Source: Fibrobacteraceae bacterium (GTDB lineage Bacteria; Fibrobacterota; Fibrobacteria; Fibrobacterales; Fibrobacteraceae). Taken from it: a stretch of DNA of 52,586 nucleotides. Below are positions 35,626 to 52,586 of the stretch, piece by piece. The stretch spans positions 1 to 52,586 of the forward strand of contig JAGBSH010000006.1 of the NCBI GenBank assembly GCA_017631885.1, in the 5' to 3' direction. A program made the translations under genes and the position numbers. The notes beneath the pieces are model-generated. The model was not told the DNA's origin and did no database searches. It saw only the letters and a list, made by a program, of their open reading frames with translations. The first letter of the stretch is position 1, and the number at the start of each line of letters is the position of its first letter.

Positions 35626-35817
35626 AAAAACTCCAAAAGAAAACTTAAAAGAATATAGTAATGTATTGATTGAAGTTTTTTCTGAATAAATTAAAAGAGA
35701 AAATTAAATTTGTTTTTTTGAAATCTTTTTTGTAAGTTCTTGTGTAATATTTTTGGCTATATCCCGGGCAGGGGCTGTTTTTAAACAGGCATGCGAATTT
35801 TTAACCGGGTGGCCAGA

Positions 35818-37572
35818 ATGTTTTTTGAAAAATATTCTTTTAAAGTTTTATTATTTGTTTTTGTTTTAGAAATGGTGTTCCCTGTTTTTGTTAATGGAAC
35901 TCCTTTAAAACAGGAATTTTCATCTAAAGTTTCGTTGGACTTTTCAGAAGCAGATATTAGAGATGTGGTGCGAGCTGTTTCGAGTGCTTACCATATTCCA
36001 ATAATTGTGGATCAAATCGTAAATGCTAAAGTAACAGTTCATTTAGAAAATGTTGAAGTGTGGGACGCATTACATGCAATATGTGGGGCCAATGGGCTTT
36101 CATTTAGGCGGGAGAATGGCGTTTTTAGAATTCAAAAAGAAACTACAGGGAATAAAGATTTTTTTGCTTTACGCAATGGTAAAATAGATTTAAATGTGAA
36201 TGGAAAAGAGTTAAAAGATTTTCTTCAAGAATTTTCCAAAAATACCGGGCTAAGTGTTGTTTTTCCGGCAGAAATAAAAGGGAATGTCTACGCAAACATA
36301 CAAGGCGTTTCTCCTAAAGCGGCATTGAGCACAATTCTTTCTGCCAATAAATATTCTCTTTTGGAAAGAGATTCTCTTTTTTTTGTTTCTCAAGGAACTA
36401 TAATTTCTAAAGAAAATGAATTAGAAATTCTTAGAACAGGAAATAGGTTTTGCCTAAAAGCAGATGGTGTTTCTATTGGAACAATTGTTCGAGAATTAGC
36501 GAAAAAGGCTTCAAAAAATATTGTACTTTATGCTGAAGCCGAAGAGAATATTACGTTATCACTTGATAGTGTTACATTAAATACAGCATTAGAAACCATT
36601 TTTAACGGAAGCCGTTATACTTATATTCTAAGTGAAAAAGGTGAAATTTTTGTAGGCGAAAAAGAGAAACAAGCGAATTTTCGAAAGACAAAATTATTCC
36701 CTTTAAGATATTTGCCAGCACTTAAAGCAGTAGAACTTTTAGAAAAAAGTTTTGGCGATAAAGGTGGAAAATATTTTGAAATAAAAGAACAAAATGCCGT
36801 TTTACTTATTGGGAACGAAAGCGATATTACATTACAAGAAAATTTTCTAACGACACTTGATTTGCCTATTCCGCAAATTTTATTGGAATGTTTAATTGTT
36901 GAATTTAAAAAAGGAAATGCTTTTGAAATAGGGTTTCATAGTGGAAATTCTCGAAAAACAGGTGAAGCTGATTTAGGGTTCCGGGGTTATTTTTCCTTCC
37001 CTGGCAAAGACATGCGTTTATTTGATGGGTATGGAAAGATAGGAGTGCTATCTGATCAATTTATTTTAGAATTAGCTTCATTAGAAGAAAAAAATTTAGC
37101 TGAAGTTTTGGCTCGCCCGAGTATCAGTACAATGAATGGGACAAAAGCTGGAATTTTTGTAACGAACACAAGTTATTATCAAGTCAACCAAGTTTCCCCA
37201 GATGGTTATCCGATAGTTGATTATCGTTCTTTTAATGATGGAATTAGTTTAGAAATAACACCAACCGTTACACAAACAGGAGAAATTACCATAAATGTTT
37301 TGCCAGAAATAAAAACTTCTTCAAGAAGTTCTGGCGATGGCCCAAGAGACATAAGTACAAGAAATTTACAGACAACTATTTCTTTAAAAGATGGAGAAAC
37401 TTTGTGTTTAGGAGGACTTTTACGAAAAACAACTTCGGAAGTGTCTTCGTCAGTTCCTTTTGTGGGGAGCATTCCTTTGATTGGGAAATTCTTTAGTTAC
37501 GTATCCAAAGAAGAAGAAACGTCGGAATTAGTGGTTTTTATAACGCCCAAAGTGTTGAAAAAGGAGCCGTAA
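35818..37572 (+). CDS. Secretin (PilQ/GspD-like outer-membrane channel)
   Basis: Forms the outer-membrane gate of a type IV pilus or type II secretion machine. Start chosen at 35818 (GGGTGG eight bases upstream, then a signal sequence ending near PVFVNG); an ATG 27 bases earlier also fits. At least two STN/N0-like domains are visible (VSLDFSEADIRDVVRAVSSA; DLNVNGKELKDFLQEFSKNTG), then a secretin N-domain (FPLRYLPALKAVELLEKSFG) and the C-terminal barrel with LEITPTVTQTGEITINV, TTISLKDGETLCLGGLLR and VPFVGSIPLIGKFF. 585 residues, compact for the family. First gene of a six-gene run with overlaps. No pilotin or assembly ATPase is adjacent. Confidence 0.92.
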   Translation: MFFEKYSFKVLLFVFVLEMVFPVFVNGTPLKQEFSSKVSLDFSEADIRDVVRAVSSAYHIPIIVDQIVNAKVTVHLENVEVWDALHAICGANGLSFRRENGVFRIQKETTGNKDFFALRNGKIDLNVNGKELKDFLQEFSKNTGLSVVFPAEIKGNVYANIQGVSPKAALSTILSANKYSLLERDSLFFVSQGTIISKENELEILRTGNRFCLKADGVSIGTIVRELAKKASKNIVLYAEAEENITLSLDSVTLNTALETIFNGSRYTYILSEKGEIFVGEKEKQANFRKTKLFPLRYLPALKAVELLEKSFGDKGGKYFEIKEQNAVLLIGNESDITLQENFLTTLDLPIPQILLECLIVEFKKGNAFEIGFHSGNSRKTGEADLGFRGYFSFPGKDMRLFDGYGKIGVLSDQFILELASLEEKNLAEVLARPSISTMNGTKAGIFVTNTSYYQVNQVSPDGYPIVDYRSFNDGISLEITPTVTQTGEITINVLPEIKTSSRSSGDGPRDISTRNLQTTISLKDGETLCLGGLLRKTTSEVSSSVPFVGSIPLIGKFFSYVSKEEETSELVVFITPKVLKKEP

Positions 37573-38647: not shown

Positions 38648-39407
38648 AAGAATTAAAATTATAATATGGCTTTTCTTTCCAACCATTATCTTTCTTGCGG
38701 GTTTTAGTTTTTGGCTTTATACTTGTGTAAAAGAAAATGCTAACAGAGATCTAAGTATTTATAAAAAAGAAATTTGGAAAATTGAAAAACAAATAGATTC
38801 GTTGCAAAATTTGCGTTTGAATTTACCGATATTTTCTATTGTAGATTTTGAGCCAGAAACGGTTAGGAAATCTCTTTTAAAACATTCAAAAGAAATTTTA
38901 TTTTTTCAAATGGATTCCGTTTCTTTGAATGGGCGCATTCAAGGTGAGTTTAACGAGTTAATTTTTTTACTTAGCGAATTATCAAATTTTGCACCTCAGA
39001 TTATTTTGTATTCATTTCAAATGCAGAAATTAAGTAGCATTTGGCAATTGGATTTTTCTTTAGGCCCTCTTTTAGCCAAAATGGAAATCACTCAGGCCAG
39101 TTTAATTTCTCTTGATTCTTTAGAAAAACGATGGCAAATTCCAAAAGTTCAAAAATTTATTCTAAACAGAGAAAGGCAAAAAGAAAAGGTTTTGCATACA
39201 AATAAACTCCAAGAAAAATGTCTGAAACAAAGTTTTAAAATTCTTGGAGTAGTGGCTGGTTATTCTTGTTTAATAGAAACACCTACCGGAAAAGAAATGA
39301 TTTTACAAGGAGAGTCTTTGAATGGGTATAGGGTAGATTCTGTTTTTAATCATTCTGTACTTTTTCGTTGTGGAAATGAAACATGGTTAAAGGAAGTTGG
39401 GAAATGA
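38637..39407 (+). CDS. GspM/PilO-like protein with GspC/PilP-like C-terminus
   Basis: 256 residues, overlapping the previous gene by 11 bases; AAGG five bases before the ATG. A single membrane helix (about 8-28, IIWLFFPTIIFLAGFSFWLY) is followed by a short coiled coil (KKEIWKIEKQIDSLQNL) and a small domain, as in PilO/GspM. The last ~55 residues (FKILGVVAGYSCLIETPTGK, NGYRVDSVFNHSVLF) repeat the pattern of the PilP/GspC homology region that docks on the secretin. If right, two alignment-complex subunits are fused. Inference from topology and context. Confidence 0.58.
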   Translation: MSHKRIKIIIWLFFPTIIFLAGFSFWLYTCVKENANRDLSIYKKEIWKIEKQIDSLQNLRLNLPIFSIVDFEPETVRKSLLKHSKEILFFQMDSVSLNGRIQGEFNELIFLLSELSNFAPQIILYSFQMQKLSSIWQLDFSLGPLLAKMEITQASLISLDSLEKRWQIPKVQKFILNRERQKEKVLHTNKLQEKCLKQSFKILGVVAGYSCLIETPTGKEMILQGESLNGYRVDSVFNHSVLFRCGNETWLKEVGK

Positions 39408-40348
39408 ATCGTGGAGCTTCTTTACCAATAGTTTTAGCGATTCTTTTTTCTTTACTCCCATTGAGTATGGTTTTGATTTCTTTGTCGGATAATGGAATGC
39501 AAGGGGTTCTTGTAGAATATAAACGATTTCAAGAATTGTATAAAGCCGAAGCGTCAATTTATGCAAAATTATATGCTTTGCCAATAAAAAATTTATTTAA
39601 TGTTCGTATTGAAGAAAATGGTTTTTGGGATAAAGCGTGTGTTAATCTTTTTCAAGGAGAATTATGCGCGGTTTATGGTTATGGATTTGAAAATTATCAT
39701 TTTTTTAAGAATAATTTAGAACTGCAAGAGGTTTTTAAATCCAGACTTTTATCGTTAAAAAATGCTTTATATATACAAGATACATTGTATGGGAATCGTT
39801 ATTTTGAAAGATTGCCTTCGGAATGTTTTGCAGTAGAAAATGGAGATGTTCGTGTTCAGTTAGATTCTTCGTTAAATAAAGCTTGTATTTTTTGTTCTGG
39901 TGATATTTTATTTCGAGGAAGAGGAAGTGTTGACACTCTTATGCTTTTTGGAGGTGGTGCCATTCGCCTAGAAGGCGAATGGCGTGTGCGCCATTTAGAA
40001 GCGCACACGAGTGAAAAAATTTCACTCACCACCATAAAATTTCAAGGAGTCGTAAGCGCAAGAGAAGTAGCGCTTGAAAACAGAACTATTGGCGAGTATC
40101 CCTCTGTTATAGCTTTAATGCCTGCAAGTTGGAATGGAAAAACTTCGCTTGAATTTCAATACGGTTCACATTTCATAGGCACATTATGGAATGCAGAAAT
40201 CAATTCAGAAATGGATATTTTGCCAGATAAAAATATCAAAGCAAATCTTTTAGGATTTTCAAAAGATTGGGAGTTGAAAAAAGATATTCCTATGCCGGCA
40301 TTTTTTGGAGTGCATTCCGGTACACCAATTATATTGGAGTGGCTATGA
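39404..40348 (+). CDS. PilX/GspK-like minor pilin-type protein
   Basis: Starts at ATG 39404, overlapping the upstream stop (ATGA), with an AAGGAAG/GGGAA stretch just ahead. 314 residues. The N-terminus NRGASLPIVLAILFSLLPLS is a short basic lead plus hydrophobic helix, as in PilX/GspK-type proteins, but the canonical Phe and Glu5 after the Gly are not conserved. KRFQELYKAEA follows, matching the export helix of that group. The C-terminal part (IFCSGDILFRGRGSVDTLM, FQGVVSAREVALENR) looks like short beta-strands of a solenoid. Codons for about 184-210 contain a perfect four-helix DNA/RNA junction (separate entry). Function inferred from cluster. Confidence 0.6.
   Translation: MNRGASLPIVLAILFSLLPLSMVLISLSDNGMQGVLVEYKRFQELYKAEASIYAKLYALPIKNLFNVRIEENGFWDKACVNLFQGELCAVYGYGFENYHFFKNNLELQEVFKSRLLSLKNALYIQDTLYGNRYFERLPSECFAVENGDVRVQLDSSLNKACIFCSGDILFRGRGSVDTLMLFGGGAIRLEGEWRVRHLEAHTSEKISLTTIKFQGVVSAREVALENRTIGEYPSVIALMPASWNGKTSLEFQYGSHFIGTLWNAEINSEMDILPDKNIKANLLGFSKDWELKKDIPMPAFFGVHSGTPIILEWL
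39953..40033. repeat. Perfect four-way-junction (cruciform/cloverleaf) sequence inside a gene
   Basis: Four Watson-Crick helices abut with no unpaired base between them. The closing stem is 39953-39958 with 40028-40033 (GGTGGT/ACCACC, 6 bp). Hairpin 1 is 39959-39968 with 39974-39983 (10 bp, core CCATTCGCC). Hairpin 2 is 39984-39991 with 40001-40008 (GTGTGCGC, 8 bp). Hairpin 3 is 40009-40016 with 40020-40027 (GAGTGAAA, 8 bp). In all, 64 of 81 bases pair, with no mismatch or G-T pair. All of it is in-frame coding sequence of the pilin-type gene (GGGAIRLEGEW, then RVRHLEAHTSEK). A further 6-bp hairpin (AAGCGC/GCGCTT, 40054-40075) follows. Confidence 0.9.
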
Positions 40349-40656
40349 AAAAGGGGTTTTCTTTATTAGAAATTCTTGTGTCAGCATTACTTTTAAACTT
40401 AGGGATTTATTTGTCTATGCAAGTGCATCAACATTTCTTGCTAATTGAAAAACGGAATAAGCAAGCAAAAGAAAAGTTCCTTTTGCAAATAGCAACATTA
40501 GACTCTCTTGTAAAAGTTCAACCATTGTGTAAGTCAGAAACAATAGAAAAGGACTCTATTGACTTTCATATAGAACCTGTATCTATAAATCCACCTTTCG
40601 TTCGAGTTGAAGTCAAAGGAAAAAATCTGTGGAGAATTATCCCGTGCAAAATTTAA
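40345..40656 (+). CDS. Type IV pilin-like prepilin (minor pseudopilin)
   Basis: 103 residues. Start at ATG 40345 overlapping the previous stop (ATGA) with GGAG six bases before; an upstream in-frame start would add an implausible leader. The prepilin peptidase signature is MKKG followed by FSLLEILVSALLLNLGIYLS: a basic lead, cleavage after Gly, Phe +1, Glu +5 and a hydrophobic helix. The small C-terminal domain contains one cysteine pair candidate (PLCKSE, IIPCKI). Likely a GspI/PilV-type minor subunit. Confidence 0.8.
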   Translation: MKKGFSLLEILVSALLLNLGIYLSMQVHQHFLLIEKRNKQAKEKFLLQIATLDSLVKVQPLCKSETIEKDSIDFHIEPVSINPPFVRVEVKGKNLWRIIPCKI

Positions 40657-40871: not shown

Positions 40872-40895
40872 AAAAGCGCCTTAAAAGGCGCTTTT
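40872..40895. terminator. Bidirectional terminator, pilus cluster / GT2
   Basis: AAAAGCGCCTT pairs with AAGGCGCTTTT, giving a GC core with A and T flanks on both strands. It lies between the last pilin gene (plus) and the GT2 gene (minus), four bases from the stop of the latter. Confidence 0.85.
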
Positions 40896-51938: not shown

Positions 51939-52586
51939 AAAACACCCTATTTTAAAACCCTACAAACACAAAATATACACTAAAAAAAATGCAAAAAAAC
52001 TTACAAAAAGATGTCTCATAAGGAAAGGTGATTTTTGCGTTGCAAAAATCGTCGACAAACCTTTTTATTACAAACAAATACTTGCCCACGAATCTTGCTC
52101 ATAGCTTCTTGCGAATGGTTCTTGCTCGCGGCTTCTTGCCACTTGCACACAAGTTGTCATTGCGCGCCGTGTAGAATACACGGCGCGGCAATCTCCTTAC
52201 CAGTAGATCGCCACACTGCGTTCGCGATGAGAATCCTTAACTTGTCACTCGCGATGGAACGTAGTGACAGAAGCAATCTCATTGCAAGCAACACTTGTTT
52301 TTGGATTACTTCGCTACGCTCGTAATGACAAAAAAAACAAGATGGCCGCGTCGTCTTAAAAGACTCCTCGCCATGACAACCCTACACTTGCCACAAGCTT
52401 CTTGTCATTGCGATGGAACGTAGTGACAGAAGCAATCTCATCGCAATTTCCGGCACAAGTTCTGTAAACATTCTTTTGCAAAATTTTATGATCATAATTC
52501 CTTTGCTTAAGCGTTTATACAAATAGAAACCTTGCTTTGTCTTTAAAGCAAAGTTCCGCCTTTTTTTATATGAAACTTTAACCTTA
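51939..52586. repeat. Non-coding region with dispersed repeat, copy B
   Basis: A 648-base stretch without a credible gene. 51939-52020 is the AT-rich leader and promoter area of GH44; no confident boxes. 52080-52470 is made of repeat units. A 32-base direct repeat (starting GCGATGGAACGTAGTGACAG) occurs at 52251-52282 and 52410-52441. A hairpin CGCCGTGTA/TACACGGCG lies at 52165-52185. The inverted match to copy A is at 52271-52378. Frames across it translate the repeat. The final 100 bases are AT-rich with a T-run at 52561-52567, of unknown role. Confidence 0.75.

Follow-up and report, generated by a model that had tools for sequence, protein, structure and literature searches.

Introduction

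Template switching is an established origin of hairpins (PMC8794818, PMC7202029, PMC8604942). In E. coli lacZ quasipalindrome reporters, short inverted repeats with local spacers are perfected by fold-back copying (PMC7202029). Monttinen and Loytynoja (2022; PMC8794818) described perfect stems that came from one switch event, an RNA-like structure of DNA-level origin. In yeast, template-switch multinucleotide mutations in proteins homogenise the arms and alter several neighbouring amino acids (PMC8604942). The mitochondria of Nematomorpha carry lineage-specific perfect inverted repeats in protein genes, where both arms code for conserved protein and imperfect repeats are not in excess (PMC6649704). 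Close inverted repeats are in excess in prokaryote coding DNA, to a degree that varies among genera (survey PMC4060949), and Ladoukakis and Eyre-Walker (2008), as far as that survey describes their work, found a codon-aware and genus-dependent excess of small or close inverted repeats.

Here, we describe an 81-base coding stretch that forms a perfect four-way junction. It lies in a 52,586-nucleotide stretch of Fibrobacteraceae DNA (contig JAGBSH010000006.1), which we refer to as the window and whose positions are used throughout. The locus is like the systems above in the respects just named and differs from them in others. The E. coli cases are single hairpins, whereas here a fourth stem encloses three abutting hairpins, all within conserved coding sequence. 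The switch events of Monttinen and Loytynoja were in RNA genes with reconstructed ancestors, and the yeast cases had reconstructed parental nodes. In contrast, this is a protein-coding gene of a bacterium with the ancestor absent; its best homologues have 24 to 36% identity, which puts an ancestral imperfect palindrome or a single switch event at the junction site beyond reconstruction. The Nematomorpha palindromes are single, mitochondrial, and up to 284 bp long, whereas here short arms form a multi-way junction in a bacterium. Compared with the repeats of Ladoukakis and Eyre-Walker, again as the survey presents them, the excess found here peaks with long perfect arms and was present in one genus and absent from two others sampled in the family. 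In the open-access literature we came across no bacterial gene reported to hold a perfect multi-way junction.

We conclude, at a probability of about 0.7, that the junction is a mutational product, written by recurrent quasipalindrome (template-switch) mutation in a lineage with a propensity for it, and neither an inserted element nor primarily a selected RNA.

Results

The host gene lies in a secretin-pilin gene run

A secretin gene precedes the host gene and small pilin-like genes follow it, as listed below.

35791-37572, + strand: secretin gene, first in the operon-like run (Pfam Secretin, 7e-40)
39404-40348, + strand: host gene, with a pilin-like N-terminal helix (residues 6 to 56) and a beta-rich domain (ORF, family profile, AlphaFold model)
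40345-40656, + strand: next gene, prepilin-like, overlapping the end of the host gene (Pfam N_methyl, E 0.0043, below its cut-off)
40872-40895, + strand: 10-bp terminator-like hairpin closing the gene run, after the last small pilin-like ORF

The host protein itself has no Pfam match, and a PDB structure search with it gave nothing significant. A weak PilX_N match (E 0.27) was seen in 1 of 19 members of its family. The label of pilin-type gene in the initial annotation appears approximately right, given the long N-terminal helix, the beta-rich domain, and the secretin-pseudopilin gene run; the product may be a minor pilin of the PilX/GspK kind. The junction encodes residues 184 to 210, a conserved beta region that is the best predicted of the protein (pLDDT about 93 at its strands in the AlphaFold model).

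Eighty-one coding bases form a perfect four-way junction

The junction occupies positions 39953 to 40033, and the reading frame is open across all of it. Its parts and the other hairpins of the host gene are listed below.

39953-39958, + strand: closing stem, 5' arm GGTGGT, pairing with 40028-40033 (6 of 6 pairs Watson-Crick)
39959-39983, + strand: hairpin 1, 11 bp, loop AGA (GCCATTCGCCT-AGA-AGGCGAATGGC; folding and pair count)
39984-40008, + strand: hairpin 2, 8 bp, loop of 9 (GTGTGCGC-CATTTAGAA-GCGCACAC; folding and pair count)
40009-40027, + strand: hairpin 3, 8 bp, loop AAA (GAGTGAAA-AAA-TTTCACTC; folding and pair count)
40028-40033, + strand: closing stem, 3' arm ACCACC, adjoining a one-codon deletion relative to the family profile
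40054-40075, + strand: flanking hairpin, 6 bp, loop of 10, ordinary alone (read from the sequence; a one-codon deletion falls here in the profile alignment)
40214-40237, + strand: 8-bp hairpin in the same host gene (hairpin listing)
40244-40268, + strand: 8-bp hairpin in the same host gene (hairpin listing)

All 33 pairs of the junction are Watson-Crick, with no G-U pair. The three hairpins, of 11, 8, and 8 bp with loops of 3, 9, and 3 nt, are short-spacer perfect inverted repeats of the kind produced by quasipalindrome mutation; the 6-bp closing stem instead spans 69 nt. We found that the RNA folds into the four-way junction at -50.2 kcal/mol (z -11.1), a stability reached by none of 200 dinucleotide shuffles, and that the DNA folds into the same junction at -33 kcal/mol (z -10.9). 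Both folds leave no base unpaired between the helices. The four helices differ in codon-position pairing, and the G+C of the stretch is higher than that of the host gene. The initial annotation had the four-way geometry, the all-Watson-Crick pairing, the absence of unpaired junction bases, the open frame, and the further hairpin at 40054 to 40075 right; it gave hairpin 1 as 10 bp and the total as 32 pairs, which we correct to 11 and 33.

The stretch is identical in a second assembly contig, JAGCIZ010000255.1 (yak rectum), which matches the window at 99.98% identity over 10.9 kb. This argues against an assembly error, though the two assemblies may share one sample. The second contig (L019) is deposited in a Paludibacteraceae MAG, which is probably contaminated by a binning error.

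Chance formation, called very unlikely in the initial annotation along with a proposal for codon-preserving controls and a genome search, was assessed in both ways. None of 20,000 synonymous versions reached the folding energy of the junction (mean -15.3, SD 3.9). For this protein and the codon usage around it, the exact probability of 33 Watson-Crick pairs is 7.6e-13, a value that applies to a geometry picked after the fact. Because of this, we searched about 1.9 Mb for any junction of abutting perfect helices. Apart from the 33-pair site described here, the largest junction had 19 pairs across 782 kb of this genome and 23 across 1.1 Mb of relatives.

The genus has a general excess of long perfect coding hairpins

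We counted perfect stems with loops of up to 12 nt in coding sequences and compared them with codon-shuffled controls. About one third of this genome (G000) was sampled as stretches, giving 681 kb of coding sequence. In it we found 36 hairpins of at least 10 bp against 14.2 in the shuffles, 21 of at least 11 bp against 4.9, and 9 of at least 12 bp against 1.4, an enrichment of long perfect short-loop coding hairpins of 2.5- to 6-fold over the controls. The nearest relative, of the same genus (G001), also has an excess (5 against 0.9 at 11 bp or longer), and another member of the genus (G002) has a weaker one (14 against 6.5 at 9 bp or longer). No excess was found in two other genera of the family (G003 and G004) or in E. 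coli. Long perfect hairpins with short loops are thus generally overrepresented within the genes of this genus. The count includes a few hairpins that belong to insertion-sequence or ORF6N/RhuM-like genes or may be terminators at ORF ends, but control genomes handled identically showed no excess.

The excess is about threefold at spacers of up to 12 nt and 1.1- to 1.3-fold beyond, as expected under local fold-back. The hairpins occur in all codon phases. They also cluster, with 11 pairs within 30 nt of each other against 2.7 expected, 3 of these in the host gene. Stems with a single G-U numbered 10 against 8.5 expected in this genome, and stems with a single A-C numbered 19 against 7.6. This excess of A-C stems and not of G-U stems argues that there is no RNA-side preference in this genome. 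In the smaller samples from G001 and G002 the G-U class stood above the A-C class, and summed over the three genus members the classes are alike. A general excess of perfect short-spacer hairpins without a G-U preference is what a quasipalindrome origin requires.

Two causes of the excess were tried and rejected. A composition artefact of AT-rich genes is contradicted by G004, which has equal G+C (0.376) and no excess. Loss of the hairpin-suppressing nucleases SbcD and XseA is contradicted by their homologues in G000 and G002; in G001, which is 71% complete, XseA is present and SbcD had no match.

Comparisons of individual sites point in more than one direction. The hairpin at L052:4641 of this genome is perfect, and the related gene in G005 has one mismatch, which is in line with template switching. 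A 12-bp coding hairpin at L054:15367-15394 of this genome lies near a gene's 3' end; at the same codon position, a member of another genus (G021, L135) has a different perfect 8-bp hairpin, and G001 and G002 have none. Selection at some sites, or a hotspot, could account for this pair. An identical 11-bp coding hairpin is found at L053:1902-1929 in this genome and in L146 of G001, in unusually conserved DNA of genes whose proteins are 62% identical overall.

Several other palindromes were observed. A gene at L185:16748-17515 (- strand), which we take to be ORF6N-like, has two perfect hairpins of 12 to 13 bp about 30 nt apart, which encode LRCKNCTSS and LRSKIWTSS, and a degenerate third. The adjoining gene at L185:17522-18640 (- strand), presumably RhuM-like, has one 11-bp hairpin, and palindromes look systematic in this gene family. 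A conserved internal hairpin in a transposase-like gene (L052:9976-10003) shows a paired C-G to T-A change among relatives. An intergenic repeat family, at 52163-52187 of the window and L049:9051-9075, has the form TCATTGCG...GCAATCTC with an 11-bp CGCGCCGTG hairpin.

The pairing points to DNA rather than RNA

About 498,000 synonymous encodings of the stretch pair fully when G-U is allowed, and 128 of these contain no G-U. The codon-weighted mean among fully pairing encodings is 7.1 G-U pairs, and we observed none. G-U pairs would be tolerated if RNA pairing were selected, so their absence points to an origin at the DNA level, although very strong selection on stability might equally favour Watson-Crick over G-U pairs.

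The best-surviving alternative is a selected mRNA four-way junction that, placed between the genes on the secretin side and the pilin genes after them, would tune translation, pausing of ribosomes, or processing by RNases. Consistently with this, the fold is very stable, rare codons (CTA, CTC, ACC, and CGC) sit where pairing demands them, and two pilin-like genes lie downstream of the junction in its multi-gene run. However, it sits in mid-gene, not at a gene start or boundary, and both the missing G-U pairs and the lack of a G-U over A-C preference in the genome's coding hairpins speak against it. When we folded the DNA of 13 homologous stretches, all distant, we found comparable hairpins in none, and the fold was neither conserved nor covarying among them. 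An Rfam search of the window gave no match, and we rejected a known RNA family on this ground. We regard selection on the mRNA as unlikely.

Still less likely is a functional DNA site, in which a cruciform or four-way junction would be bound by a protein such as a recombinase, junction resolvase, or nucleoid protein. Watson-Crick perfection suits DNA, abutting arms are ideal cruciform geometry, and the site is single copy. Against this, conserved protein-coding sequence surrounds it on both sides, homologous loci have no junction, we recognised no adjoining mobile or recombination gene, and the genome-wide hairpin excess requires no binding protein.

The junction formed in place

A profile of about 38 distant homologues aligns across the junction with no insertion and one codon missing. 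These homologues are from other genera, and none is above 36% identity. The junction stretch fits the family profile at 0.90 bits per residue, against 0.80 in the rest of the protein, and retains the conserved positions G185, I187, L189, G191, V195, L198, and E199. The insertion-free alignment and the 13 homologues without hairpins argue that the junction formed in place. As read from these alignments, it is homologous protein-coding DNA turned perfectly self-complementary where it stood.

An inserted palindromic element (Rickettsia palindromic elements, REP/MITE) that happened to preserve the frame is a very improbable source, even though the stretch is palindromic, in frame, and higher in G+C than its host gene. 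The profile spans it with a codon lost and none added, and its residues match the family as well as the rest do; this alignment contradicts an inserted element. We found no second copy in its own genome and no match in viral contigs, on which ground a repeated element was likewise rejected. Neither the extra residues nor the multiple related copies of an RPE-like in-frame mobile element are present. Chance or an assembly artefact is equally improbable, since the pattern, although picked post hoc by a reader out of 52 kb, far exceeds the synonymous controls and the next best site and recurs in the second assembly, which is possibly not independent of the first.

A proposed origin by repeated template switching

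The initial annotation had offered three explanations. Template switching is now the best supported, by the all-Watson-Crick pairs, the genome-wide hairpin excess of the genus without an overall G-U preference, and the lack of an insertion. The mRNA structure it also proposed is disfavoured by 0 G-U pairs against about 7 expected and by the hairpin-free homologues, and its protein-bound cruciform gained no positive support.

Under repeated template switching, the nascent strand would fold back at short imperfect inverted repeats during replication and copy itself, so that each 3' arm would come to complement its 5' arm exactly. An existing hairpin may then stall the polymerase at its base, where further switches would begin and end. 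Such stalling and switching could leave abutting hairpins without a spare base and finally the closing stem. It counts against this account that three abutting hairpins and a closing stem need several events or a putative stall-and-switch chain. The one-codon deletion beside the closing stem counts for template switching. The 3' arms of all three hairpins match the family profile more poorly than the 5' arms and hold the most deviant residues (W193, H201, and S207-L208, among 17 residues only). This is suggestive only, and would fit copying of 3' arms from 5' arms during nascent-strand synthesis in the coding direction. The beta-rich domain probably tolerated substitutions where residues vary and at third codon positions, and with the conserved Gly, Leu, Val, and Glu kept, the gene would have stayed open. 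Cruciform extrusion of the product is conceivable, and strong folding is expected in the mRNA; such effects are probably by-products. A bolder view, which we consider doubtful, is that hairpin writing is unusually active in this genus and proceeds in chains, with each hairpin seeding the next at its base and perfect multi-way junctions building up within genes, or that such DNA junctions are kept for cellular recognition.

Discussion

When coding DNA contains a perfect fold of several helices, the usual reading is that of a selected RNA structure. The genome-wide pattern, the absence of G-U pairs, and the homologues without the fold suggest that mutation alone could write a four-way junction while leaving the frame and the conserved residues intact. 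The genus, together with its excess-free relatives, would offer a natural system for the control of template-switch mutation in bacteria and for the one-step appearance of stems.
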